DNA from: an uncultured Oscillospiraceae bacterium
GTDB taxonomy: Bacteria > Bacillota > Clostridia > Oscillospirales > Oscillospiraceae
Direction of reading: 5' to 3'
DNA: 64,000 nucleotides
Assembly: GCA_944387845.1 (NCBI GenBank)
Contig: CALXGH010000021.1
Coordinates: 1 to 64,000 of the forward strand
The first letter of the stretch is position 1, and each line of letters opens with the position of its first letter. Below, piece after piece: positions 7,112-58,986 of this stretch. Position numbers and translations under genes: made by a program. The notes beneath the pieces were generated by a model, which saw only the letters and a program-made list of their open reading frames with translations, did not search any database and was not told the origin of the DNA.

Positions 7112-7369
7112 ATGATAATTCAGATCTGCGTCGGTTCATCCTGCCATCTGAAAGGCTCGGAAAAGATAGTTGAGCTTTTTCAGAAAGCCATTGAGCAGTA
7201 CCATCTGGAGCGGGACATAACCCTTGCGGGCAGTTTCTGTACTGGAAAGTGCAACAGGGTAGGCGTAACCGTTCAGGTGGACGATGATATATACCCAGGC
7301 GTTACCGTTGAGGGATTTAATGAGTTTTTTGAAGATAAGGTCCTGAAAAAATTACGTGAGGGAGCGTGA
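7112..7369 (+). CDS. Thioredoxin-fold [2Fe-2S] ferredoxin-like protein, copy 2
   Basis: An 85-residue paralogue of the preceding protein, with the same cysteine spacing: ICVGSSCHLKGS near the N-terminus and FCTGKCNRVGV in the middle. The two copies share the GS-SCH-KGS frame but differ elsewhere, so the duplication is old and each may have its own partner. A short C-terminal tail rich in lysine ends the chain. Its stop codon overlaps or abuts the start of the sensory hydrogenase gene, indicating translational coupling. It is probably part of the electron path into or out of the hydrogenase; this is inference from position. Confidence 0.84.
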   Translation: MIIQICVGSSCHLKGSEKIVELFQKAIEQYHLERDITLAGSFCTGKCNRVGVTVQVDDDIYPGVTVEGFNEFFEDKVLKKLREGA

Positions 7370-7374
7370 TATCT

Positions 7375-9051
7375 GTGTCAAGTAGTCTTATTTTAAAGAA
7401 ATCCAACTGTAAAAACTGCTACAAGTGTATAAGGCATTGTCCGGTAAAGTCCATCCGCTTCTCAGGAAACCAGGCCCATATTATAGATAACGAGTGTATA
7501 CTGTGCGGCCACTGCTTTGTTGTCTGCCCGCAGAATGCCAAGCAGATCAGAGACGAGACAGAGAAAGTCCATGTTCTTTTACAGACTGGAGATCCTGTAG
7601 TGGTTAGCCTTGCTCCGTCCTTCATCGCAAATTATGAAGGTGTAGGCATAGAGTCTATGAGAGAAGCCCTTAAAAAATTGGGCTTTTACGATGTTGAGGA
7701 GACAGCTATTGGCGCCACAATGGTAAAAAGGGAATATGAACGTATGCTCAAAGAGGAGAAAAGGGACATTCTCATATCCTCCTGCTGCCATTCTATAAAT
7801 CTTCTCATACAGAAGTATTTCCCAAATGAGATTCAGTATCTTGCTGATGTGGTTTCTCCTATGGTTGCCCACTGCAAGGATATAAAGAAGAGAATACCAA
7901 ACGCCAAAACTGTTTTTATCGGCCCATGTGTTGCCAAAAAGGATGAGGGCGAACTAAGCGACGGTATAGTTGACGCTGTCCTCACCTTTGAGGAGCTTAC
8001 AGAGTGGCTGAAGAGAGAAGATATTGAACTTAAAAAAGAGATCATACCTGATAATAACAGCCGGGCCAGATTCTTCCCCACCACAGGCGGCATTTTAAAG
8101 ACCATGGCTCAGGACGCACCGGGCTACACATATATCGCCCTTGACGGCGTGGAAAACTGCATAGCTGCTCTTAAGGATATAGAGAGCGGAAAAATACACA
8201 ACTGCTTTATAGAGATGTCGGCGTGTATAGGAAGCTGCATCGGTGGCCCTGTAATGGAGAAATACCGCCGCAGTCCTGTAAAAGACTATGTATCTGTAGC
8301 CAATTTCGCCGGCGAGGAAGATTTTGATGTTCCGCAGCCAGATATCGTGGCTATGAAGAAAGACTTTGAGTATATAGACAGAGAGTCCAAGATGCCATCT
8401 GAAAGTGAGATTCGGGAGATACTACACCAGATGGGCAAATTCCGCCCTGAGCAAGAGCTCAACTGCGGCTCATGCGGATATGACACCTGCCGTGAAAAGG
8501 CGATTGCCATATACCAGGGCAAGGCCGAGATATCCATGTGCCTGCCGTTCTTAAAAGACAAGGCCGAGAGTTTCTCCGACACTATCGTTAAAAACACGCC
8601 AAACGGCCTTATTGTGTTAAACGACAAACTGGAGGTCCAGCAGATAAACTCAGCGGCGCTGAATATTATGAATATCAGATATCAGTCCGACGTTTTGGGC
8701 GACCAGGTAGTGCGGATACTTGACCCGACGGTATTTATAAAGGTACAGAACACCGGCAGGGGAATATATAACGAGAGGGTATACCTTGCTGAGTATAAGA
8801 GATATGTGGAGTGGACTATTGTTCCTGACAGAGAGAGCAAGATGCTCATCTGCATTATGCGTGATGTTACAGATGAGGAAAATGAGAGAGAGAAGAAAGA
8901 GAGCATAAGCCGTCAGACGGTTGAGGTAGCCGATAAGGTAGTAGAAAAGCAGATGCGTATCGTTCAGGAGATAGCTTCACTTTTAGGTGAGACAGCCGCC
9001 GAGACAAAGATTGCCCTTTCAAAATTGAAGGAGTCGATATCTGATGAATGA
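7375..9051 (+). CDS. hydS: Sensory [FeFe] hydrogenase with PAS domain (group C, HydS-type)
   Basis: Group C [FeFe] hydrogenases are thought to sense H2 rather than to turn it over fast. Domains in order: two [4Fe-4S] ferredoxin motifs (CKNCYKCIRHCP and CILCGHCFVVCP), the H-cluster domain with SSCCHSINLLIQKYFP, FIGPCVAKKDE and EMSACIGSCIGG (the cysteines that would hold the H-cluster), a further Fe-S motif CGSCGYDTC near residue 365-385, and a PAS domain (GLIVLNDKLEVQQINSAALN) followed by a coiled C-terminus. The classic P-loop motif TSCCP of catalytic enzymes is SSCCH here, as expected for an altered proton path. Two GTG codons (7366 and 7375) could start it; 7375 has better spacing from GAGGGAG. 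The phosphatase gene overlaps its end by 8 bases, which fits a sensor-to-phosphatase output. Confidence 0.88.
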   Translation: MSSSLILKKSNCKNCYKCIRHCPVKSIRFSGNQAHIIDNECILCGHCFVVCPQNAKQIRDETEKVHVLLQTGDPVVVSLAPSFIANYEGVGIESMREALKKLGFYDVEETAIGATMVKREYERMLKEEKRDILISSCCHSINLLIQKYFPNEIQYLADVVSPMVAHCKDIKKRIPNAKTVFIGPCVAKKDEGELSDGIVDAVLTFEELTEWLKREDIELKKEIIPDNNSRARFFPTTGGILKTMAQDAPGYTYIALDGVENCIAALKDIESGKIHNCFIEMSACIGSCIGGPVMEKYRRSPVKDYVSVANFAGEEDFDVPQPDIVAMKKDFEYIDRESKMPSESEIREILHQMGKFRPEQELNCGSCGYDTCREKAIAIYQGKAEISMCLPFLKDKAESFSDTIVKNTPNGLIVLNDKLEVQQINSAALNIMNIRYQSDVLGDQVVRILDPTVFIKVQNTGRGIYNERVYLAEYKRYVEWTIVPDRESKMLICIMRDVTDEENEREKKESISRQTVEVADKVVEKQMRIVQEIASLLGETAAETKIALSKLKESISDE

Positions 9052-10216
9052 TTTATGTGCTGAGATCGGGTACAAGAGTATAAATCATTTCGGAGAGCAG
9101 CTCTGCGGGGATCATGTGGATATCATAGAGCAGGACGAGAACTCCACGGTAATCGTACTGGCTGACGGACTGGGCAGTGGTGTAAAAGCCAGTATTTTAT
9201 CCACCCTTACATCCAAGATAATATCCACCATGATGGCTGAGGGACTACCGCTTGAAGAGTGTGTGTCCACAATCGCTGACACTCTCCCAGTGTGTTCCGT
9301 AAGGGGCGTTGCGTACTCCACTTTTACCATCATACACCTGATCAATAACGACACGGCCGAGCTTATACAGTATGACAACCCAATGATAATACTGCTGCGG
9401 GATGGGGTTAATTATGATTACCCTAAGACCGAGATGAGTATCGGCGGAAAGCAGATATACAGGTCAAACATAAAGCTTCGGGAAAATGACATTTTCATAG
9501 CCATGAGTGATGGTTGCCCACACGCGGGCATTGGTCTTGCCTTCAACTTTGGCTGGAAAAGAGAGGACATAATATCATTTATGGAGACTCTGGCTCCGGC
9601 GGGATATACGGCAAAGACACTGTCAACTATACTTGTGGATGAGTGCAACAAGCTCTACGGAAATGAGCCGGGTGATGACGCAACCGCCTGCGTTATACGC
9701 ATAAGGAAGAGAGAGCCTATGAATCTTCTCTTTGGGCCTCCTTCCAACAGGGACGACTGCGACAGGATGATGAGCCTTTTCTTCTCCAAAGAAGGAAAGC
9801 ATATAGTCTGTGGCGGTACGACGTCATCAATCGCAGCTAAATATCTGAACAAACCGCTGAAAGCAAGCCTTACTTTTGAAAGCAGCGATGTGCCGCCTAT
9901 CGCGGAGATCGAGGGCGTTGACCTTGTTACAGAGGGCGTAATAACCATAAACAAGGTGCTGGAATACGCCAAAGACTATCTCAAAGATAATGAGAGTTAC
10001 GAACAGTGGTGTTATAAGAAGGATGGTGCGTCTCTTATAAGCAGGCTGCTTTTTGAAGAGGCGACAGATATAAATTTCTTTGTGGGCAGAGCTATAAATC
10101 CGGCACATCAGAACCCGGAACTGCCTATTACATTCAGCATAAAAATGAACCTGGTGCAGGAACTGTCTGAATGCCTTAAGAAGATGGGCAAACGCATTAA
10201 GGTAAGTTATTTTTAA
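9044..10216 (+). CDS. SpoIIE/PP2C-type serine phosphatase with an unassigned C-terminal domain
   Basis: Family members dephosphorylate serine or threonine on partner proteins such as anti-sigma-factor antagonists. Residues 1-225 form the PP2C-like domain: VIVLADGLGSGVKAS with the first metal-binding Asp-Gly, IFIAMSDGCPHAG with the second, and GDDATACVIRIR with the last metal aspartates. The remaining 160 residues (from about GPPSNRDDCDRMM to the end) match no domain I know; they carry HIVCGGTTSSIAAKYL and might bind a ligand or partner. The gene starts 8 bases inside hydS and is followed after 12 bases by a second hydrogenase. Such phosphatases are known neighbours of group C hydrogenases, and the likely role is to convert the hydrogenase redox signal into dephosphorylation. 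Its target is not in the window. Confidence 0.83.
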   Translation: MNDLCAEIGYKSINHFGEQLCGDHVDIIEQDENSTVIVLADGLGSGVKASILSTLTSKIISTMMAEGLPLEECVSTIADTLPVCSVRGVAYSTFTIIHLINNDTAELIQYDNPMIILLRDGVNYDYPKTEMSIGGKQIYRSNIKLRENDIFIAMSDGCPHAGIGLAFNFGWKREDIISFMETLAPAGYTAKTLSTILVDECNKLYGNEPGDDATACVIRIRKREPMNLLFGPPSNRDDCDRMMSLFFSKEGKHIVCGGTTSSIAAKYLNKPLKASLTFESSDVPPIAEIEGVDLVTEGVITINKVLEYAKDYLKDNESYEQWCYKKDGASLISRLLFEEATDINFFVGRAINPAHQNPELPITFSIKMNLVQELSECLKKMGKRIKVSYF

Positions 10217-10228
10217 GGGAGAAAAAAC

Positions 10229-11662
10229 ATGAGAAAATTTGATACAAAAGTACAGCATCTTAAATATAAGGTCCTGAGAGAAGTTGCCCGTCATGCATGG
10301 GACGACACGCTCCTTGAGAGCATTACTGACATTCCGAAGGACATTGTACCTGGAAAAGTGCCAACAATGCGCTGCTGCGTATATAAAGAGCGTGCTATTT
10401 TGTCAGAGCGAGTAAAGATCGCCATGGGCGGCGATAAGGATAATCCGAACGTTATCGAGGTTATAGACATCGCCTGCGATGAGTGCCCTGCTGCTGGATA
10501 TGAGGTAACAGACTCATGCAGAGGCTGCCTTGCACACCGCTGTGAGGATGTTTGCCCGAGAGGAGCTATATCCTTTGACCATAATCATACAGCACATATA
10601 GACAAGACAAAGTGTATTGAGTGCGGACGTTGCTCCCAGGTTTGTCCTTATACTGCCATCATTAACCGCAAGAGGCCATGTCAGAACGCATGCAAGGTAA
10701 AGGCTATAACCATAAGCGAGGACAGCGTAGCTGCAATTGACAATGAAAAGTGCATATCCTGTGGTGCTTGTGTATATCAGTGCCCATTCGGTGCTATTAT
10801 GGATAAGTCATACATACTCAACGTAATAGATATAATCAAGAAGAGTGAGGGCGGAAAGAAATACAAGGTATACGCCATTGTTGCCCCGTCTATATCCAGC
10901 CAGTTCTCATACGCAAAACTGGGCCAGGTAGTAGCTGGACTTAAAAAGATGGGATTCCACACAGTTATTGAAGCTGCTCTCGGCGCGGATATGGTAGCTC
11001 TCAGCGAGTCAAAGGAACTTGTGGAGAAGGGCTTCCTTACAAGTTCATGCTGCCCGGGCTTTGTAGCATACATCAAAAAGTCATATCCGGAGCTTATCCC
11101 TTACATCTCCCACAACCTGTCTCCTATGGCGGCTCTGGGCAAGTATATAAAGGATACAACAGAAAATGCAAAGGTAATATTCATCGGGCCATGCACCGCG
11201 AAAAAGATGGAAATGCAGCTTGACACAGTTAAGCCATATGTAGATTCCGTAATGACCTTTGAAGAGCTTCAGGCTATGTTTGATAGCCTTGATATGGATA
11301 TAAATACTCTTGAAGAGGATGTACTTGACAATGCATCCTACTTCGGAAGAATATTTGCCCGTACAGGCGGCCTGTCTGATGCTGTGGCTCAGGCCCTTAA
11401 AGAACAGAACCTCGACTTTGAGGTCAAACCGGCAGTATGCAACGGTATTGAGGAGTGCAAAGTTGCTCTTCTGAAAAAGAGCAAAAATGTCCTCAAAGAG
11501 AACTTTATTGAGGGTATGGCCTGTGTCGGTGGATGCATCGGCGGTGCTGGATGTCTTACACACGGGGCAAAGGATAAAGCTCAGGTTGATGAATACGGCA
11601 GAGAAGCTATGGAAAAGACAATATCTGACGCTGTTGCCGTTCTCGGCATAAACAACAAATAA
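10229..11662 (+). CDS. Monomeric [FeFe] hydrogenase, probably group B
   Basis: The enzyme would reduce protons with ferredoxin electrons or oxidise H2. The 477-residue chain has an N-terminal region with extra cysteines (ACDECPAAGYEV, CRGCLAHRCEDVCP), ferredoxin-type motifs CIECGRCSQVCP and CISCGACVYQCP, and the H-cluster domain with TSSCCPGFVAYIKK, FIGPCTAKKMEMQ and EGMACVGGCIGGAG. Phe after CCPG (rather than Trp) and the N-terminal layout suggest group B, typical of Clostridia, rather than the well-studied group A. It has no PAS domain and closes the operon that starts at 6104, followed by a strong terminator. Co-transcription with the sensor suggests that it is either the regulated output or a second component of the sensing system. 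Confidence 0.87.
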   Translation: MRKFDTKVQHLKYKVLREVARHAWDDTLLESITDIPKDIVPGKVPTMRCCVYKERAILSERVKIAMGGDKDNPNVIEVIDIACDECPAAGYEVTDSCRGCLAHRCEDVCPRGAISFDHNHTAHIDKTKCIECGRCSQVCPYTAIINRKRPCQNACKVKAITISEDSVAAIDNEKCISCGACVYQCPFGAIMDKSYILNVIDIIKKSEGGKKYKVYAIVAPSISSQFSYAKLGQVVAGLKKMGFHTVIEAALGADMVALSESKELVEKGFLTSSCCPGFVAYIKKSYPELIPYISHNLSPMAALGKYIKDTTENAKVIFIGPCTAKKMEMQLDTVKPYVDSVMTFEELQAMFDSLDMDINTLEEDVLDNASYFGRIFARTGGLSDAVAQALKEQNLDFEVKPAVCNGIEECKVALLKKSKNVLKENFIEGMACVGGCIGGAGCLTHGAKDKAQVDEYGREAMEKTISDAVAVLGINNK

Positions 11663-11693: not shown

Positions 11694-11736
11694 GCATGTT
11701 AGAGTATTCGGCTCTATATACAGAAAGATAATATGA

Positions 11737-11776
11737 AAATATACCCGGAGAACAGTAAAGTTCTCCGGGTATATTT
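11737..11776 (-). terminator. Intrinsic terminator of pflAB (minus strand)
   Basis: A 17-bp perfect stem (11737-11753 with 11760-11776) containing ACCCGGAGAAC. On the minus strand it follows the pflB stop and ends in an A/T-rich T stretch. Confidence 0.88.
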
Positions 11777-11791
11777 TGATTGTAGTAAAAT

Positions 11792-14035
11792 TTAGATGGA
11801 CTCATGGAATGTGCGCTTGATTACTTCAAGCTGCTGTTCCCTGCTAAGGCGGTTAAAGTTTACCGCATAACCGGAAACTCGGATTGTCAAAGTAGGATAC
11901 TGCTCAGGGTGTTCCATAGCATCTAACAGCACCTGACGATCAAGTACGTTTACATTAAGGTGGTGAGCTCCCTGGATAAAGTAGCCATCCAGAATGGAGA
12001 CAAGGTTATGGACACGCTCTTCCAGGCTCTTTCCAAGTGCGTTAGGTACAATTGAGAAGGTGTTGGAAACGCCGTCCTGACATACACCGCGATATGGAAT
12101 CTTGGCAACGGAGTTAAGGCTGGCCAAAGCACCGTTTTCATCTCTGCCGTGCATCGGGTTAGCGCCAGGAGCAAAAGGTTCTCCAGCTTTGCGCCCGTCC
12201 GGTGTGCTTCCTGTCTTCTTGCCGTACATTACATTGCTGGTGATAGTCAGTGCGGAGAGTGTGTGGATAGCGTTGCGGTACAGTGGGTGCTTTTTCAGTT
12301 CAGCGGAGAAATAGGATACAATTTCAACGGCAATATCGTCTACGCGATCATCGTCATTACCGTATTTGGGGAATTCTCCTTCCACCTCAAAGTCAACGGC
12401 GATTCCCTGCTCATTGCGGATTGGGCGTACTTTTGCAAATTTAATAGCGGAGAGGGAGTCTGCGGCGATGGACAGACCTGCCACGCCAAAGGCTGCAAGA
12501 CGCTCCACAAGAGTGTCATGAAGGGCCATCTGGCTTGCCTCATAGGCATATTTGTCATGCATATAGTGGATGATATTTATCGTATCCACATAGAGTTCTG
12601 CAACATAGGACAGAACCTTCTTATAGTTTGTTAGGACTTTTGAATAGTTGAGCACCTCGTCTTCATCCCGCTGGATACCAGGAACAACCTGCATTCCCTT
12701 CTTTTCGTCAACGCCTCCATTGATGGCGTAAAGAAGGCTCTTTGCAAGATTTGCCCTTGCGCCGAAGAACTGCATCTGCTTGCCAACTGCCATTGCGGAT
12801 ACGCAGCATGCTATGCAGTAGTCATCGCCATAGAGAGGACGCATGATATCGTCGTTCTCATACTGAATGGAGTCAGTAATTACGCTCATTTTTGCACAAT
12901 AGTCTTTAAAGCCCTGGGGCAGATTCTGGCTCCACAGAACGGTCAGGTTCGGTTCCGGGGCAGTGCCCAGGTTTGTAAGAGTGTGGAGATAGCGGAAGCA
13001 TGTCTTGGTTACAAGTGTGCGACCGTCGATTCCCATGCCGCCGAGAGCCTCGGTAACCCATGTTGGGTCGCCTCCGAAGAGCTCATTGTACTCTGGGGTA
13101 CGCAGGTGGCGAACAAGACGGAGCTTGATAACAAACTGGTCGATAAGCTCCTGAGCGCCTTCTTCATCAAGAATTCCGCGATCCATATCACGCTGAATAT
13201 AGATATCCAGGAAGGTAGCGGTGCGGCCGAGAGAGGTGGCGGCTCCGTTGTTCTCTTTGACTCCGGCCAGGTAGCCTAAGTACAGATTCTGTACGGCCTC
13301 CCGTGCATTTTCTGCAGGGCGGGTTACATCACAGCCGTAACGGGCTGCCATGGAAGCCAGTTCCTGAAGGGCACGGATCTGCATATTTATTTCTTCACGC
13401 AGACGGATGAGCTCGTCAGTCATAGGGCCGTCCATTTCTTCAAGATCGCGCTTCTTTTCTTCGATGAGGAAGTCAGTACCGTACAGAGGTATGCGACGAT
13501 AGTCGCCTACAATACGTCCGCGGCCGTAGGCGTCAGGCAGACCAGTGAGAAGACCGGCGGTGCGGGCCAGACGTGTGCGCTTTGGATAGGCGTCAAACAC
13601 ACCTTCATTGTGGGTTTTGCGGTAAAGGTGGAAATGTTTGCGAATTTCTGGATCTAAAGTATAGCCATACTGCTCTAAAGCAGATTCTGCCATACGCAAG
13701 CCGCCGTAGAGGTTAACGATCCTCTTGAGAGGCGCATCTGTCTGAAGACCTACTATAACTTCGTTTTCTTTATCAATGTAGCCGGGTTCAAAATTGTCAA
13801 TACCGGATATTACTTTTGTTTCGACATCCAGAATTCCCTTTTTCATCTCCTCAAGAATCAGGTTGTGAGCCTGTTCCCACACCTTTTTAGTGCGAGGAGA
13901 AATGGGGGAGAGGAAGCTGTCGTCTCCAAGATAAGGTGTGTAATTTTTCTGTATAAAGTTTCGTACGTTTATGAGATGTCTCCACTCGCCAGTGTGAAAT
14001 CCCTGCCAATAGCTGCCGTTAACATCAATGCTCAT
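11792..14035 (-). CDS. pflB: Pyruvate formate-lyase (formate C-acetyltransferase)
   Basis: PFL is a glycyl-radical enzyme that cleaves pyruvate with CoA into acetyl-CoA and formate under anaerobic conditions. At 747 residues it is close to the 750-760 of the family. The two catalytic cysteines are adjacent in [13 protein letters not shown], and the radical glycine is in RVSGYAVNF, Gly about residue 722, 25 residues from the C-terminus as expected. The sequence RGIVGDYRR-like and GRGR motifs of the substrate pocket are also present. The ATG overlaps the stop of pflA by 4 bases (ATGA), so the two are translated together. Both are downstream of a ZTP riboswitch, so formate production is linked to folate and purine status. 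Confidence 0.96.
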
Positions 14036-14778: not shown

Positions 14779-14813
14779 TTGTGCCCTCCTTTGACAATGA
14801 TTATAAAAACAAA

Positions 14814-14918
14814 AAGGCCGACAGTCTGGGACCCTTTATGCCCAGACGGTCGGCCGATATTCACGTCGCACTCCACGTGGTTAATTCCACTTAAAACCGT
14901 CAGTTGTGCAACTACCGT
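14814..14918 (-). ncRNA. ZTP riboswitch (pfl motif) with terminator, leader of pflAB
   Basis: Read on the minus strand, the leader has all parts of the ZTP/ZMP-sensing pfl motif. P1 is GTTGCA (14912-14907) with TGCGAC (14870-14865); the conserved CAACTGACGG follows P1; P2 is a GTGG/CCAC hairpin (14890-14887 with 14880-14877); GTGGAGTGCGAC leads back into P1; and the downstream domain holds CCGTCTGGGCA (14849-14839), matching the family's CCGCCUGGGCA. The last part is also the 5' arm of a 15-bp terminator stem (14855-14841 with 14828-14814 region) followed by TTTTTGTTTTT. Binding of ZTP, a signal of low 10-formyl-tetrahydrofolate, would be expected to block the terminator and allow pflAB transcription. 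Known family biology; alignment was by eye. Confidence 0.9.
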
Positions 14919-14924
14919 AATTGC

Positions 14925-14953
14925 AGTCTAACATGCTTTCAAATACATGTCAA
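14925..14953 (-). promoter_or_regulatory. Sigma-A promoter for the riboswitch-pflAB transcript
   Basis: On the minus strand TTGACA (14953-14948) is followed after 17 bases by TAGACT (14930-14925). Transcription would begin near 14918, immediately before the riboswitch aptamer, which fixes the RNA 5' end. Confidence 0.82.
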
Positions 14954-15250
14954 GCCGTTTGTTTCAAAAAACTTTTTATGTAATCTCAAGTTGCTATATT
15001 AATGCTTCACTTTTTATAAGTGCAGAAATTTGATAGATTTTATACGATAATTAACTTATACTTCCAAAATTTGGTTATAAAATGCCAGAGTTTGTTAGGC
15101 CCAATTATGTGGATGATTTTAATTTCTTTTGTTTAGAAGAGATGTACTGGGGCGATACCGTGGAAGAGATAAATATTAAGTGCCATTGTATGGATAAGCA
15201 CTTCTGTTAATTCACACAATGGCACAACAGGTCTTTATGTCTTTTTTGCT
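14954..15250. other. Gene-free stretch between the pfl promoter and fakA
   Basis: I see no gene here. The only structure is a perfect 10-bp inverted repeat GTGCCATTGT/ACAATGGCAC (15180-15189 and 15216-15225) with a 26-base loop, lying just after the fakA stop on the minus strand. It could be a weak terminator, but no T run follows. Confidence 0.5.
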
Positions 15251-16909
15251 CTATTCAGCTGAGATCATGTAATAGTATACAGGCTGGCCTCCGTAAGCGG
15301 TAACTACGTCGGCATCAGGGAAGGCTTCGGAGAATACCTCTGCAAGGGATTCTGCGTCATCTTCCAGCACGTCTTTTCCGTAGAAAATAGTGATTATTTC
15401 AGGTTCATACTCTTTCAGAGAATCAACAAGAGCTCTTGTAACTACGTCATAATCAGAGGTATTTGCGATAACGGAACCTTCAAGAAGGGCGAGGAACTCG
15501 CCGGTCTTTATCAGCTTACCGTCAAATTCTGAATCTCTGGCTGCGTAGGTGATTGAAGCGGAGTGAACATTTGAGAATGAGGTTGATAGAACCTCAGTCA
15601 GCTCCTCTTCCGTAGCGGAGGCATCGAAATTCATCATTGCTGCGATACCCTGCATGACGGTGGTTGTAGGAATGACAATGACTTTCTTATTCTCTACGAG
15701 AGGTATGCACTGTTCAGCTGCCATGATTATGTTCTTGTTGTTGGGGAACACATAAACTATCTCTGCAGGAGTCTTTTTAACCTGCTTTAAAATGTCCTCA
15801 GTGGATGGATTCATCGTCTGGCCACCCATGATTATCCTGTCGACACCAAGTTCTGTAAATGTCTCAGAGAGACCGTCGCCTACACATACGGCAACAACAC
15901 CGAATTTTTTCTCCGGCTTTGCGTCAGCCTCTTCGATCTCGATATTTTCAAGATCGTCTATGCTCTGAGCCTTTCTGCCTGCGGCCAGATCATCACGCTG
16001 AGTACGCATGTTTTCGATCTTGGCAAGCTCGAGAGTACCGTATTTCTGGGCTTCATTGAGGGCGTCGCCTGGAATATTGGTATGGACATGAACTTTGAAA
16101 GCGTTATCGTCCTCGCCGATAACAAGGCTGTCGCCAATGCTGTCAAGATAAGCAGCAAGAGGGTCGAGAGATTTCTTTACAGTTTTGCGGACGATAAATA
16201 CAGTATCAAAGGTGAATGTTATCTCCTCGTCAGAAAGGCCGGCAAAGTCAGCCTTGCCCTCAGATTCGGAAGCATCGCCTGTGTATTCTATCATCTCTCC
16301 TCGAAGAGCTTTGAGCATGCCCTCAAGGATACAGATATATCCTTTACCGCCAGCGTCGATAACCCCTGCCTTTTTAAGTACAGGATTCTGATTAATAGTG
16401 TTTTCCAGGGCCTTTTTACCAGCCCGGATGGTTATTTCAAGGAGATTTTCAATATCGTCAGTCTCCTTAGCTGCGGCCACCGCAGCGTCGGAAGCAAGAC
16501 GTGAAACTGTAAGTATTGTACCTTCAGCCGGCTTCATAACTGCCTTATAAGCGGAAGATACACCATTTTGCATTGCGGCCGCAAAAGTTTTTGCGTCAGC
16601 TTTTTCGCAACCTTTGAATTCTTTTGAAATGCCTCTGAAAAGGAGCGAGAGAATAACGCCGGAATTGCCGCGGGCGCCTCTGAGCAGAGCGCTAGCTACT
16701 GTGTCAGATGCTTCGGATATATTCATTTCGCCGTGCTTTTTAAGCTCGGTAGAGGCCGTCCCAATTGTAAGGGACATATTAGTGCCTGTATCGCCGTCGG
16801 GAACAGGAAAAACATTCAGGTCATTTATGGCCTGTTTTTCGATATTGATGGCGTTTGAGGCATTAATAACCATATCTTTAAATGCCGCGCCTGTAATTTC
16901 TGTTATCAC
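15251..16909 (-). CDS. fakA: Fatty acid kinase catalytic subunit FakA (DAK2 domain)
   Basis: FakA (YloV) phosphorylates fatty acids bound by FakB proteins so that they can enter phospholipid synthesis. The N-terminal DAK2-like nucleotide domain has NVFPVPDGDTGTNMSLT (about residues 30-46), RGARGNSGVILS near 80, and a glycine-rich IDAGGKGY; the C-terminal half has the family's IIMGGQTMNPSTEDIL and FPNNKNI motifs. The start is set at the GTG at 16909, because GGAGGG lies 7 bases upstream and the family begins just before this point (ITEITGAAFKDM). An upstream ATG would overlap the preceding gene's stop region. Length is 552 residues. It lies 16 bases after the Asp23 gene, the usual neighbour in Firmicutes. 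Confidence 0.92.
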   Translation of the reverse strand: MITEITGAAFKDMVINASNAINIEKQAINDLNVFPVPDGDTGTNMSLTIGTASTELKKHGEMNISEASDTVASALLRGARGNSGVILSLLFRGISKEFKGCEKADAKTFAAAMQNGVSSAYKAVMKPAEGTILTVSRLASDAAVAAAKETDDIENLLEITIRAGKKALENTINQNPVLKKAGVIDAGGKGYICILEGMLKALRGEMIEYTGDASESEGKADFAGLSDEEITFTFDTVFIVRKTVKKSLDPLAAYLDSIGDSLVIGEDDNAFKVHVHTNIPGDALNEAQKYGTLELAKIENMRTQRDDLAAGRKAQSIDDLENIEIEEADAKPEKKFGVVAVCVGDGLSETFTELGVDRIIMGGQTMNPSTEDILKQVKKTPAEIVYVFPNNKNIIMAAEQCIPLVENKKVIVIPTTTVMQGIAAMMNFDASATEEELTEVLSTSFSNVHSASITYAARDSEFDGKLIKTGEFLALLEGSVIANTSDYDVVTRALVDSLKEYEPEIITIFYGKDVLEDDAESLAEVFSEAFPDADVVTAYGGQPVYYYMISAE

Positions 16910-16925
16910 TGCATTTCCCTCCATG

Positions 16926-17279
16926 TCAGTCAAGGCTTATGGAGTCAACAAAGACATCCACACTGCTTACTTTTATACCGGTAACTACCGATACTTTGTA
17001 AGCTACTTCGGAAATAATACTCTTGCAGATAGCCGGAATATTTACTCCGTGTTCGATGATGATGTGAAGTTCTATCGAAACAGTATCGTTATCGTTGAAA
17101 GTTACATATACGCCTTTCCCCATGGATTCGCGTTTTAAAAGGTGGACGAGCCCGTCAGTAACCGAGCGCATAGCCATACCCTTTACGCCGAAACAGCTGG
17201 TGGCAGCTTCGCCGACAAGAGTGGTAAATACGTCCGCATTGATGTAAATGAAACCATTATCATTTTCAAGTTTCACCAT
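16926..17279 (-). CDS. Asp23/Gls24 family protein (YloU-like)
   Basis: A 117-residue cytoplasmic or membrane-associated protein of the alkaline-shock family. It shows the family's GEAATSCFGVKGMA segment (about residue 25) and LHIIIEHGVNIPAICKSI, and ends with VTGIKVSSVDVFVDSI, the conserved C-terminal strand. Proteins of this group are linked to envelope stress and, through operon conservation, to FakA. The start ATG is preceded by GGAGTAGGATC. A second family member sits at 54271 in this window. Function at the molecular level is not established for the family. Confidence 0.9.
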   Translation of the reverse strand: MVKLENDNGFIYINADVFTTLVGEAATSCFGVKGMAMRSVTDGLVHLLKRESMGKGVYVTFNDNDTVSIELHIIIEHGVNIPAICKSIISEVAYKVSVVTGIKVSSVDVFVDSISLD

Positions 17280-41425: not shown

Positions 41426-44365
41426 ATGAAGCAAATTTTTATGGAAGAAGTCCTGAATCAGGTCAGAACTCGGGGAGATTGTGAGGCTCTGGTAGATCAG
41501 GAAATGGGTATGATGACTTTTTCGGAGATGTGGAACCTGTCTGGTAAGGTTTATCAGTACCTGATAAACCATGGCATCGGCCGGGAGGATGTTGTCGTTA
41601 TCCGCCTGCCGAGAAACAACAATGTTTGTGTTGCCATGGTAGGTGTAATGCGTGCCGGAGCAGCCTTTACTATTCTTGAAGAGGGCTATGTTCCGGACCG
41701 TGTGGATTATATAATAAAAGACTCAGGCTGCAAGCTCATTATTGACAGAGACGCCTGGGCCGAGATAGAGAAGACTGAGCTTACAGAAGAGTCTGCAGGC
41801 GAAGGATACAGGGAAGTTGATCTTCATGATGCTGCCTATATCGTATACACATCGGGCAGCACAGGAAACCCAAAGGGCGTGCTCCACGAATATGGCAGTA
41901 TCACATATCTCTGGGCATCTGTAAAATATGAGGGAAATTTCCTGGTATTTGCGGGAGATTCCTATGCCCTTATAGCGCCTCTCAATACGGTTGCCGCGGT
42001 TACGACATTTCTTGTAATTGAAATGCTGGGCGCATCCACACATATTCTTCCTACAGCGATGGCTCGTCAGCCTGACGCCATGCAGGATTATATAACAAAG
42101 CACCATATAACAGGCGCTTTCTTCTCACCCACAGTTACCCGCATTATGCGTATGTCAAATTTGGGCCTCAGCTTCATTGCCCTGGGCAGTGAGCCGGCCA
42201 ACGGCGTTTTCATAGACAACTGCACGCTGATGAATTATTACTGCTCAAGTGAGACCGGGTGTCATGCCATGTCATATATGATGGACAAGGCATATCCGAT
42301 CGCTCCGATAGGAACGCCACAGTTTGACATTGACTATAAAGTAATACCTCTTGATGAGGGCTCTGAGGACGGCGAGCTCTGCGTTTATCTTCCTTATACA
42401 CGTGGATATCTTAATCTGCCTGAGGAGACGGCAAGAGTATTTAAAGATCACTGGTATCACACAGGCGATATCGTAAGGAAAGAGGACGGTAAATATTTCC
42501 TTATCGGCCGAGTTGACGATATGTTTAAAGTAAACGGCAACAGGGTTGAGCCTGCGGAGATAGAAGTAGTGGCTAAGGAACTTTTAAAGCTGCCATGGGT
42601 AGCTGTAAAAGGTTTTGAAGAAGGAATGCATACCTATATATGCCTTTACTATCTAAATGCTACGGAGATAGATCCTGCTGAGGCAAACAAGATACTTGCC
42701 GAGAAACTTCCTTACTATATGATACCGTCCTACTATATCAAGCTGGATTCTATACCTTTCCTGCCGGGCGGAAAAATAAACAGGAAAGCGCTTCTGCCTC
42801 CTGAGAACAAGACAAGACACGGGGTATATGTTGAGCCTGAAAATGATACTGAGCGCACATTGTGCAGGGCATTTTCACGTGTTCTCAGCTTCAGTCCATA
42901 TGGCGCTGAGGATGACTTCTATATTCTTGGTGGCGATTCTCTTGCGACTATGGAAGCCATTGACTTATGTCATCTGCCGGGACTTACAATGGATATGGTC
43001 CTGCGTGGCCGTACTCCAAGAAAAATAACCCAGATTTATCGCCAGCAGATAATTCACGCTGAAGAGGATATTGCTCAGCTTAACCAGGAAGCACTGGCAA
43101 AACCTCATCCTCTGACGGTTGAGCAGAAATATATGCTTGAGTATCAGAAGCTTAATCCCGGTTACACAACATACGATTTGTATGGAATTGTTAAATACAG
43201 TATAAGAATGGATATGGAGCGGCTGGCAAAAGCTGTTACAAAGGCGTTTTCCAATCATCCGGCTCTTATGACTACATTTGAGCGGGACGAAAACGGGGAA
43301 CTGGTTCAGATTTACCATGCTGATATGGTACCGGAAATTATAGTTGAGAATATGTCCCAGGCCGAGTTTGAAGCTATAAAGGACACGCTTGTAAAGCCTC
43401 TTGATCTTATTGGCGGCAGACCTTATGTCTATCGCCTTTTCAAGACGGAAGTTGCGGACTATTCATTTTTCCATATCCACCACTCACTCATAGACGGCAC
43501 ATCCTTTAATATTCTCCTTCAGGATACGCTGAGAGCTTATTACGGTAAGGAAATGGCTATGGACGGCTATTATCTCATGCTCCAGGAGAGAGAAGACCAG
43601 GAGAAGACAGCCTTTTATGAGGAAGGTAAAGAGTATTACAAAAATAGATATGACGGCATTGAGTGGAGCATAAGACCAGAAGAAGATATGAAGTCTGATG
43701 AAAACCACATAGGCGTCATAAACGAGACATTTGACCTGACTGTTGCTCAGACTGAAAAAATGTCCAAAATGTACAATATGGGTCGAAATGGCACTCTTGT
43801 TACGGCTCTCGCTTTGGCTGTCGCGGCTTATAATAACAAAAAGGACGTTATGGTAAGCTGGGTACACAACGGAAGAAAGTCAGCTCTTGAGGCAAACGTA
43901 GTTGGACTTCTTTATAAACAGCTGCCTCTGGGACTGCGTCTTGACGAAAAGCAGACACTTGCTCAGGTTTATGAAGATGTGAGAGACCAGATGGTAAGGG
44001 GAGTAACATATTCCAACTATCCATACTGCAAACTGGGTGCACGGCCTGTTGAGGACGATAAGGCATGTTTCCTGCTGCAGAATGGAATTTACGACATATT
44101 CAATAGTGCTGATGGTGTATCTACGGATCCAGTAGAGATTGAAAACAAGAAAGTGGCATCCTATGCTATGCTTGACATGGAAGTGGTCCATGAGGAAGAG
44201 AAAGCTTATCTGAAAATGAGCTACAACGCAAGCAGATATAAGAAGGAGAGTATAGATAAGTTCAAAAACCTCTATCTTGATATTGTGCGTACGATGATAG
44301 AAAAGGCTGATGATGAGAGCTATACTGTTGGCCAGCTTCTTGAAGCAGTGAAAGATGCAAAATAA
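41426..44365 (+). CDS. Single-module nonribosomal peptide synthetase (A-T-C)
   Basis: The 979-residue enzyme has three domains. Residues 1-460 form an adenylation domain: YTSGSTGNPKG (A3, about 144-154), YHTGDIV (A7), GRVDDMFKVNGNRVEPAEIE (A8) and PGGKINRKALLPP (A10). Residues 470-545 are a carrier domain with LGGDSLA, the phosphopantetheine serine being residue 505. Residues 560-979 form a condensation domain with HHSLIDG at 685-691. There is no thioesterase. The A5 motif, usually NxYGPTE, is YYCSSETG, and the aspartate of A4 that grips the alpha-amino group is not evident, so the substrate may not be an ordinary amino acid. The gene is alone between two terminators, with site CAGGAG; no phosphopantetheinyl transferase or transporter is next to it. 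Confidence 0.88.
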   Translation: MKQIFMEEVLNQVRTRGDCEALVDQEMGMMTFSEMWNLSGKVYQYLINHGIGREDVVVIRLPRNNNVCVAMVGVMRAGAAFTILEEGYVPDRVDYIIKDSGCKLIIDRDAWAEIEKTELTEESAGEGYREVDLHDAAYIVYTSGSTGNPKGVLHEYGSITYLWASVKYEGNFLVFAGDSYALIAPLNTVAAVTTFLVIEMLGASTHILPTAMARQPDAMQDYITKHHITGAFFSPTVTRIMRMSNLGLSFIALGSEPANGVFIDNCTLMNYYCSSETGCHAMSYMMDKAYPIAPIGTPQFDIDYKVIPLDEGSEDGELCVYLPYTRGYLNLPEETARVFKDHWYHTGDIVRKEDGKYFLIGRVDDMFKVNGNRVEPAEIEVVAKELLKLPWVAVKGFEEGMHTYICLYYLNATEIDPAEANKILAEKLPYYMIPSYYIKLDSIPFLPGGKINRKALLPPENKTRHGVYVEPENDTERTLCRAFSRVLSFSPYGAEDDFYILGGDSLATMEAIDLCHLPGLTMDMVLRGRTPRKITQIYRQQIIHAEEDIAQLNQEALAKPHPLTVEQKYMLEYQKLNPGYTTYDLYGIVKYSIRMDMERLAKAVTKAFSNHPALMTTFERDENGELVQIYHADMVPEIIVENMSQAEFEAIKDTLVKPLDLIGGRPYVYRLFKTEVADYSFFHIHHSLIDGTSFNILLQDTLRAYYGKEMAMDGYYLMLQEREDQEKTAFYEEGKEYYKNRYDGIEWSIRPEEDMKSDENHIGVINETFDLTVAQTEKMSKMYNMGRNGTLVTALALAVAAYNNKKDVMVSWVHNGRKSALEANVVGLLYKQLPLGLRLDEKQTLAQVYEDVRDQMVRGVTYSNYPYCKLGARPVEDDKACFLLQNGIYDIFNSADGVSTDPVEIENKKVASYAMLDMEVVHEEEKAYLKMSYNASRYKKESIDKFKNLYLDIVRTMIEKADDESYTVGQLLEAVKDAK

Positions 44366-56488: not shown

Positions 56489-56725
56489 ATGGCAGCTAAG
56501 AAAAAGACGTTTGAAGAGGCCATAACAAGGCTTGACGAGATTGTAAAGGCACTTGAAAAAGGAGACGCTCCTCTTGAGGAATCCCTAGATCTGTTTGGAG
56601 AGGGCACAGAGCTCATAAAATATTGCGGCAAGATTCTGGACGATGCGGAGCAGAAAGTTGTAAAGCTCAGAAAAGGCCCTGACGGTCAGCCAGTAGAGGA
56701 GAGCTTTGAGGGCTTGGAAGGCTGA
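56489..56725 (+). CDS. xseB: Exodeoxyribonuclease VII small subunit
   Basis: The 78-residue partner of XseA, a helical hairpin. Family sequence: FEEAITRLDEIVKALEKGDAPLEESLDLF with EGTELIKYCGKILDDAEQKV (split across residues 7-58). The ATG at 56489 is chosen because GGAAA lies 6-10 bases before it; an upstream TTG is less likely. It overlaps the ispA reading frame region slightly, and ispA starts 5 bases after its stop. Confidence 0.94.
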   Translation: MAAKKKTFEEAITRLDEIVKALEKGDAPLEESLDLFGEGTELIKYCGKILDDAEQKVVKLRKGPDGQPVEESFEGLEG

Positions 56726-56729
56726 GAAT

Positions 56730-57599
56730 ATGAGAGAAGAACTTTTAAGGCTTAAAGAGCTTATAGATATGGAGCTTGAAAAATATTTCAAAGATGATCT
56801 TCCACAAAAAGAGCTTTTTGAAGCCATGAGATATAGCCTTCTGGCGGGAGGAAAGAGAATAAGAGGCGTGCTGGTTCTGGAATTCTGCCGTCAGAGCGGC
56901 GGAGATATAAATTCGGCGCTGCCGGTAGCCTGTGCGGTGGAGATGCTCCACGCTTATTCTCTTATACATGACGACCTGCCCTGCATGGATAACGATGACT
57001 TACGTCGTGGAAAGCCCACAAACCATATAGTTTATGGTGAGTGTACAGCTACTTTAGCTGGAGACGCTCTTCAGGCTGCGGCATTTGAAACAGTCCTTTC
57101 AGCTTCGCTAGAGCCGGAGAGGATAGCGGCGGCTGCCCGAGAACTGGCTTTTGCCGCCGGAGAGAAAGGAATATGCGGCGGTCAGTACCTTGATATGGCG
57201 GGAGAAGGAAAGAAGCTTTCTATTGAGGATGTAGAAAATATACACAGACTTAAAACAGCGGCAATGATAAAGGCGGCCTGCAAAATGGGTGTTATTGCCG
57301 GCGGAGGTACCGCAGAGCAGCTTGAGGCTGCAGAGGAGTACGCAAAAAGCGTGGGCCTTGCCTTCCAGATAAGGGATGATATCCTAGACTGCATATCTAC
57401 CACTGAGGAGCTTGGAAAGCCCGCCGGTTCTGACGAGAAGAATGCAAAAAGCACCTATGTATCCGTTTTTGGCATGGAAAAATGTAAGGAAATCGTGGAA
57501 GTTGAGACAAAAAAAGCAGAAAATGCTATAAGAGGAAAATTTTGCAATGTTGATTTTCTGCTAAAGCTGGCGGAATATTTGGCTGGCCGAAAGAGCTAA
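56730..57599 (+). CDS. ispA: Farnesyl diphosphate synthase (polyprenyl synthetase)
   Basis: IspA condenses dimethylallyl and isopentenyl diphosphates to geranyl and farnesyl diphosphate. The 289-residue chain has the first aspartate-rich motif LIHDDLPCMDNDDLRRGKPTNH (about residues 79-100; pieces HDDLPCMD and DDLRRGKP), GGQYLDMAGE (about 151) and the second motif FQIRDDILDC (about 214). Gly-Gly-Lys-Arg (AGGKRIRG) lies near residue 40. The start is the ATG at 56730 with GGAAGG upstream. The last gene before the non-coding RNA at 57684, it shares a pathway with dxs. Confidence 0.95.
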   Translation: MREELLRLKELIDMELEKYFKDDLPQKELFEAMRYSLLAGGKRIRGVLVLEFCRQSGGDINSALPVACAVEMLHAYSLIHDDLPCMDNDDLRRGKPTNHIVYGECTATLAGDALQAAAFETVLSASLEPERIAAAARELAFAAGEKGICGGQYLDMAGEGKKLSIEDVENIHRLKTAAMIKAACKMGVIAGGGTAEQLEAAEEYAKSVGLAFQIRDDILDCISTTEELGKPAGSDEKNAKSTYVSVFGMEKCKEIVEVETKKAENAIRGKFCNVDFLLKLAEYLAGRKS

Positions 57600-58434: not shown

Positions 58435-58986
58435 ATGAAAGCTAAATCTAATAGGTTGTGGATTGTTCAGATAATTATTTTGAGCATAGCCATGTCGATG
58501 ACCTTTAGTATAATTTCCGAGGCTGTGCTTGACGGAGCAGGCTATGCCATGGCGTTTTCCGTTTTGGCGGTTTTTATTATAATCGGTATAGTTTTTGATA
58601 TAATCGGCGTTGCTGTAACCAGTTCTCAGGAGGCGCCTTTTCACTCTATAGCCTCGCATGGTGAAAGAGGTGCGGGAGAGGCCATAATGCTTCTGAGAAA
58701 CGCGGAAAAGGTTTCCAGTATATGCAATGACGTTGTGGGTGATATATGTGGAATCATGAGTGGTACCACCAGCGCCGTTATAGTTGTAAATCTGGCTTCT
58801 GGCCTTGGCTGGAAGGAGGCTGTTTTGGCTGTACTCATTTCCGGTATGGTAGCCGGCCTCACCATCGGCGGCAAAGCCCTCGGCAAGAAAGTTGCAATAA
58901 ACAGCAATGTCAAAATCGTTTTGGCGGTAGGTAAGGTTATAAACTGGTTTGGCGGAATATTTAGAAGAAAAAGAGGCAAAAGTTAA
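58435..58986 (+). CDS. oapA: OLE-associated protein OapA
   Basis: OapA is the integral membrane protein that binds OLE RNA and holds it at the membrane. The 183-residue chain has about four spans (residues 9-28, 36-60, 110-130 and 133-152), with the conserved acidic and glycine-rich stretches SQEAPFHSIASHGERGAGEA (about 66-85) and VVGDICGIMSGTTSAVIVVN (about 101-120), and a strongly basic tail FGGIFRRKRGKS suited for RNA contact. Its place between OLE and dxs is invariant in OLE-bearing species. Site GGGGGAAATTGTG precedes the ATG. Outside the OLE locus the family has no clear relatives that I recognise. Confidence 0.9.
   Translation: MKAKSNRLWIVQIIILSIAMSMTFSIISEAVLDGAGYAMAFSVLAVFIIIGIVFDIIGVAVTSSQEAPFHSIASHGERGAGEAIMLLRNAEKVSSICNDVVGDICGIMSGTTSAVIVVNLASGLGWKEAVLAVLISGMVAGLTIGGKALGKKVAINSNVKIVLAVGKVINWFGGIFRRKRGKS

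Follow-up and report, generated by a model that had tools for sequence, protein, structure and literature searches.

A predicted ZMP/ZTP-sensing ON riboswitch leads the pflA-pflB operon of an uncultured Oscillospiraceae bacterium

Introduction

What governs pyruvate formate-lyase (PFL) in a small-genome member of the Oscillospiraceae, and which metabolic need does that control serve? The question is raised by the leader of a pflA-pflB operon in a 64,000-nt stretch of an uncultured bacterium's DNA (the window; positions below refer to it). The ZMP/ZTP ligand and the ON logic of the RNA class involved were reportedly worked out by Kim, Nelson and Breaker in 2015. A preliminary description of the window proposed that a riboswitch of this class controls PFL as a central fermentation enzyme. 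We find that the leader is very probably a ZMP/ZTP-sensing transcriptional ON riboswitch, with ligand binding, direction, effect size and metabolic loop all predicted from sequence, and that its genome offers a setting in which PFL may serve biosynthesis.

Results

The pfl leader carries a full-length ZTP aptamer. A cmscan search matched RF01750 (ZMP/ZTP, the "pfl RNA motif") over model positions 1-86 of 86 at 54.1 bits, above the gathering score of 39; with the 64-kb window searched against every Rfam family, E is 5.2e-6. The covariance-model search proposed in the preliminary description thus upheld its complete pfl/ZTP motif on the minus strand, and the interval it gave, 14814-14953, fits the span from the -35 box to the U tract (Table 1). 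Helices P1, P2 and P3 are all present in the alignment. Non-standard pairs occupy the three outermost positions of P1 and the two outermost of P3 (weak U-A); the core is intact, and J1/2 and L3 retain all of their strongly conserved bases. The score lies in the lower half of the range for this family in the host and its relatives (42.7-70.4 bits). The element is an ordinary member of a riboswitch class already well known, and its RNA very probably senses the folate-shortage signal ZMP/ZTP.

Table 1. Positions of the pfl-leader elements, the operon and a riboswitch pair in a related locus.
Feature	Position	Strand	Basis or remark
Promoter, TTGACA-17-TAGACT, TG before -10 box	14925..14953	-	scan, 10/12; position conserved across ZTP leaders
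ZMP/ZTP aptamer (P1, P2, P3), RF01750	14833..14917	-	cmscan, 54.1 bits; gathering score 39
J1/2 strand GACGG of pseudoknot	14897..14901	-	pairs with 14845-14849; its A-U pair is replaced by G-C in other members
L3 strand CCGTC of pseudoknot, also within terminator 5' arm	14845..14849	-	leader comparison and direct reading
Intrinsic terminator hairpin; 5' arm is P3 5' strand, pseudoknot strand and most of P3 3' strand; 3' arm is the 'invader'	14816..14855	-	fold, -28.1 kcal/mol, z -6.0
Terminator U tract	14811..14815	-	sequence
Ribosome-binding site AGGAGGG before pflA	14784..14790	-	sequence
pflA, pyruvate formate-lyase-activating protein, 248 aa	14032..14778	-	TIGR02493, 290.8 bits; cut-off 231.75
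pflB, pyruvate formate-lyase, 747 aa, 4-base overlap with pflA	11792..14035	-	TIGR01255, 1226 bits; cut-off 994.2
Operon-end terminator after pflB, 18-pair stem, T-rich tail	11736..11777	-	scan
NiCo / ZTP riboswitch pair, Anaerovorax odorimutans MAG	L124:1108-1186 and L124:2318-2399		

Comparison of ZTP leaders supports the tertiary core of the aptamer. GACGG and CCGTC pair fully in the pfl leader, and we followed this pseudoknot through 84 leaders, 49 from the host and its relatives and 35 from named genomes. In the 83 leaders with both strands found, pair 14900/14846 is A-U in 71, G-C in 11 and G-U in 1 (kinship ignored), and a search of these 83 for mispairs found none; the first 49 leaders alone hold 45 A-U and 4 G-C. 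The 84th leader, which differs beside the motif and so falls outside the search pattern, reads G-C by eye. The pseudoknot therefore covaries between A-U and G-C without mispair across the leaders.

These data weigh on two deflationary explanations. Were the aptamer decayed and unable to bind ZMP/ZTP, the terminator behind it would be a fixed attenuator; five non-standard outer helix pairs and a moderate score point that way, against which stand the retained J1/2 and L3 bases, the fully paired pseudoknot and the presence of the element in the nearest named relatives, so we regard decay as very improbable. That a chance hairpin merely coincides with a chance Rfam match draws on the moderate bit score and nothing else. 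We rejected a chance match on the E-value over the window and all Rfam families and on the conserved place upstream of pfl; comparative data already contradict it, the pseudoknot covaries, and what probability it retains is negligible.

Aptamer and terminator compete for the same bases. The aptamer runs into an intrinsic terminator with two 15-nt arms, one C/U mismatch, a 10-nt loop and a TTTTT tract, and none of 200 shuffled sequences folded as stably. This hairpin is absent from a simple terminator scan and rests on the fold and direct reading, because the scanner's 8-nt loop limit missed its 10-nt loop. The preliminary description had placed CCGTCTGGG in the 5' arm, and there it is, though the last CA of that string falls in the loop. 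Within the terminator, 4 of 4 bases of the P3 5' strand, 4 of 5 of the pseudoknot strand and 4 of 4 of the P3 3' strand pair with downstream bases, making the expression platform exclusive with the aptamer. This overlap therefore predicts transcriptional ON logic. An OFF switch was rejected, since we saw no separate anti-terminator and the aptamer and terminator have bases in common.

A promoter sits at a conserved distance from the aptamer. The TTGACA-17-TAGACT site ends 7 nt before it. Across the region, 6 promoter-like sites were counted against 7.7 predicted by chance, so such sites are not enriched there. At the aptamer start, counting sites whose end falls anywhere from 13 nt ahead of the first model position to 4 nt past it, a match of at least 9/12 occurs in 47 of 83 ZTP leaders (one of the 84 was left out for too little upstream DNA), compared with 50 of 1626 windows further upstream (3.1%) and 65 of 1660 shuffles (3.9%). 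Because the promoter's place is fixed across ZTP leaders, transcription most likely begins a few bases ahead of P1, in line with the earlier proposal that this promoter sets the RNA 5' end.

The switch stands before genes of one-carbon supply. The pflA and pflB assignments made earlier hold, both proteins passing the curated TIGR02493 and TIGR01255 cut-offs; another glycyl radical enzyme was rejected as the product, other families scoring far below their cut-offs. pflB is the sole PFL-like gene found in the host genome. Control of the one-carbon genes pflA and pflB by the switch is assigned by position only. Upstream, an inverted repeat seen by eye, GTGCCATTGT...ACAATGGCAC (15180-15224, minus strand), separates the pfl promoter from a fakA-like gene of the YloV family (15251-16933) and is possibly the terminator of the fakA-like operon. 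On the other side, convergent with pfl, lies a three-gene cluster (7366-11662, plus strand) that looks like a hydrogenase-based sensor set. Its products are a 561-aa [FeFe] hydrogenase-like protein extended at the C-terminus, a 390-aa protein that weakly matches a SpoIIE-like phosphatase and a 477-aa [FeFe] hydrogenase of group B1.

ZTP switches commonly accompany PFL. Across 80 genomes, host included, RF01750 occurs in 37 and full-score PFL in 22; in 12 of these 22 (tables read by hand), RF01750 lies directly upstream of PFL on the same strand (G000, the host, and G021, G022, G023, G044, G056, G060, G061, G065, G069, G071 and G072). Among 80 named loci retrieved with the window's PFL as query, at least 35 carry RF01750, always upstream and on the same strand, distributed over successive batches of 20 as 19 (first listed), 8, 2 and 6. 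In the first batch, the single locus without a match is cut off 588 bases ahead of PFL; other loci also have shortened upstream sequence, so 35 is a lower bound. The link is common and not universal, since no adjacent match was found at 45 of the 80 loci, some of them short upstream, or in 10 of the 22 PFL genomes. The nearest named relatives keep the element before PFL; the closest relatives of the host's PFL come from uncultured Oscillospiraceae and Flavonifractor. One MAG, of Anaerovorax odorimutans, carries a further element, a NiCo riboswitch scoring 45.6 bits some 1.1 kb ahead of its pfl-leading ZTP riboswitch.

This layout bears on how much the switch matters. Many bacteria regulate PFL by redox state, and with a promoter present upstream, a protein redox or oxygen regulator might mainly set pflAB expression while a genuine ZTP switch only trims it. 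Against this minor role, no transcript from the pfl promoter can reach pflA without passing the terminator of -28 kcal/mol in between, and the arrangement is kept at at least 35 of 80 PFL loci. We consider such a subordinate switch possible yet unlikely.

The operon's first gene appears to go with terminator design. We classified terminators by a simple rule, taking candidate U tracts and the lowest-energy fold. In leaders with pflA first, which in the named set was judged by a distance of more than 500 nt to PFL, independent of annotation, the terminator engulfs all of P3 and the pseudoknot in 29 of 30 (all 25 named leaders and, of the five from the host and relatives, all but L021). Full overlap occurs in 4 of 16 classified pflB-first leaders (4 of 9 named, with one further named leader unclassified; 0 of 7 in relatives) and in 9 of 37 leaders of other genes, some counts outside the pflA group coming from odd downstream folds (e.g. 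L013, L018, L040, L051). In most remaining leaders the terminator begins at GGGC of the P3 3' strand and extends downstream, and the host's own purine switch is built this way. The pattern suggests an association that bears on gene-by-gene tuning of expression platforms. It may reflect descent and not tuning, because pflA-first leaders are probably more closely related to one another.

A second ZTP switch leads a purine operon in the host. The host assembly is a draft with gaps (1.56 Mb, 68 contigs, 97.64% complete, 0.84% contaminated) and holds two ZTP switches. The second leads purE-purC-purF-purM-purN-(unnamed)-AICAR formyltransferase-purD-FGAM synthase-fhs, in which purC and purF are assigned as purC-like and purF-like, the AICAR formyltransferase is stand-alone and the FGAM synthase is long. 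The purC, purF and fhs model matches fall below whole-protein cut-offs, for fhs because the gene runs to the contig end. The formate-THF ligase gene is split over contigs C62 and C60; where the ends of the two overlap they differ at two places, and one of these differences creates a stop in C62 only. That this gene ends the ZTP-led purine operon backs the earlier proposal that PFL formate feeds 10-formyl-THF. Beside the AICAR formyltransferase, a 239-aa gene (L035:7906-8625) with no NCBIfam match at 1e-30 is, by its place, a candidate IMP cyclohydrolase.

PFL may be the host's only one-carbon source. The genome encodes PFL, formate-THF ligase, FolD and AICAR formyltransferase. In the 97.64% complete assembly we found no match to serine hydroxymethyltransferase (SHMT), GcvT or molybdopterin oxidoreductase (molybdopterin formate dehydrogenase); the SHMT search succeeded in all 14 control genomes and in 73 genomes of the 80-genome set. 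Because these three were undetected and PFL, formate-THF ligase and FolD are present, PFL formate may be the sole supply, a reading that rests on the SHMT, GcvT and molybdopterin oxidoreductase searches. Against it stand the gaps in the assembly and the SHMT of close kin; formate may also be taken up, and one-carbon units may come by other routes such as histidine breakdown or formate dehydrogenases of other folds.

The data do not demonstrate a link between SHMT loss and the switch. SHMT is present in 23 of 27 genomes searched individually, including two with the nearest PFL, so its absence, seen in the host, G082, G086 and G099, is not kept in close kin. Among the 22 full-score PFL genomes, SHMT over the cut-off is missing in 3 of 12 with an adjacent ZTP element (G000, G061, G071) versus 0 of 10 without, a split expected by chance at 220/1540 = 0.14 (calculated by hand), which does not establish an association. 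Nor does lacking SHMT force a genome to have PFL, since relative G039 matches neither.

The genome setting suits biosynthesis no less than fermentation. A gene at 89-2098, in the same window as pfl, is PFOR-like by its domains. With this gene at hand and other predicted one-carbon sources undetected, the switch makes no less sense on a PFL that serves one-carbon biosynthesis than on one that serves fermentation. The earlier emphasis on PFL as a central fermentation enzyme may thus mislead and is better toned down.

Other loci in the window are notable in their own right. A 979-aa NRPS-like protein with AMP-binding and condensation domains (41426-44365, plus strand) is encoded in this small fermentative genome. 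A full-length OLE RNA (RF01071, 57669-58324, plus strand, 417.9 bits) is flanked by a polyprenyl synthetase gene (56706-57599) and by a 183-aa ORF without a Pfam match (58435-58986), followed by dxs; we take the ORF to occupy the place expected for OapA.

Discussion

We propose that folding of the pfl leader is decided by the one-carbon state of the cell. Transcription would begin just before P1 and the aptamer would fold first, P3 closing and its loop pairing with J1/2 to form the pseudoknot. With 10-formyl-THF plentiful, AICAR (ZMP) would be consumed and the aptamer left empty; the next stretch of RNA could then invade P3 and the pseudoknot strand to form the terminator, and most transcripts would end before pflA. 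Under one-carbon shortage, ZMP/ZTP would build up, lock the pseudoknot and block invasion, allowing pflAB to be read. PFL would make formate, which formate-THF ligase would convert to 10-formyl-THF. The preliminary description likewise predicted that high ZTP would raise PFL, a direction supported by the aptamer/terminator overlap and by the available text of work on related switches (PMC10085676, PMC7484762, PMC7337938).

A broader reading joins the two switches into one circuit. PFL would be the sole source of formate and one-carbon units, with SHMT, GcvT and molybdopterin formate dehydrogenase gone; a single alarmone, acting through two ZTP switches, would govern both supply (pflAB) and activation and use (the purine operon with AICAR formyltransferase and fhs); and PFL would be a dedicated biosynthetic enzyme with the riboswitch as its main governor. 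We advance this reading tentatively, as somewhat short of probable. A genome apparently without the near-universal SHMT route makes it simple to ask why ZTP should control PFL at all, the idea at stake being that such control secures formate for purine and thymidylate synthesis, with energy not the purpose. As a riboswitch, the pfl leader is a further clean example from a class already studied in depth, and its genome setting lifts it somewhat above the average match.

The locus differs in no kind from its class. The motif took its name from pfl in the 2010 work of Weinberg et al. (PMC2864571), in the available text of which pfl is among the five genes most commonly found with the motif, the reason given being formate for formyl-THF and purines; the formate argument of the preliminary description is therefore not new in kind. 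The class as presented there has the same aptamer, pre-pfl position, overlapping terminator, predicted ON logic and purine and formyl-THF gene set, and the outer P1 and P3 pairs here are weaker than consensus. Ligand and ON logic are established for ZTP riboswitches (available portions of PMC7337938, PMC7484762 and PMC10085676).

Close counterparts of the mechanism are known. Strand displacement has been published, including for pflA-linked Clostridium switches, whose invaders are reported to behave alike (PMC10085676, in the part available). In C. beijerinckii pfl, according to the same portion, the invader first pairs with the P3 3' strand and then works its way through the pseudoknot, the ON level being set by elements of the invader that are non-complementary. 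The present leader has the same full-overlap design and non-complementary invader elements, and its invasion would likewise nucleate on the P3 3' strand; it differs in its single C/U mismatch midway along a 15-nt arm and in its host, with a small genome and nearest PFL relatives among uncultured Oscillospiraceae and Flavonifractor. The Thermosinus carboxydivorans ZMP switch, as far as the accessible part of PMC7337938 describes it, has the pre-formed pseudoknot, P3-dismantling terminator and narrow ligand-binding window that are predicted here too; its sequence and linker differ, in a comparison made at the level of design. For ZTP switches, a 2026 study modelled aptamer and terminator together by covariation (PMC13273304). 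To these known systems the present locus adds a conserved layout, pseudoknot covariation free of mispairs, the terminator design of pflA-first leaders and a second switch in the same host on a purine operon ending in fhs.
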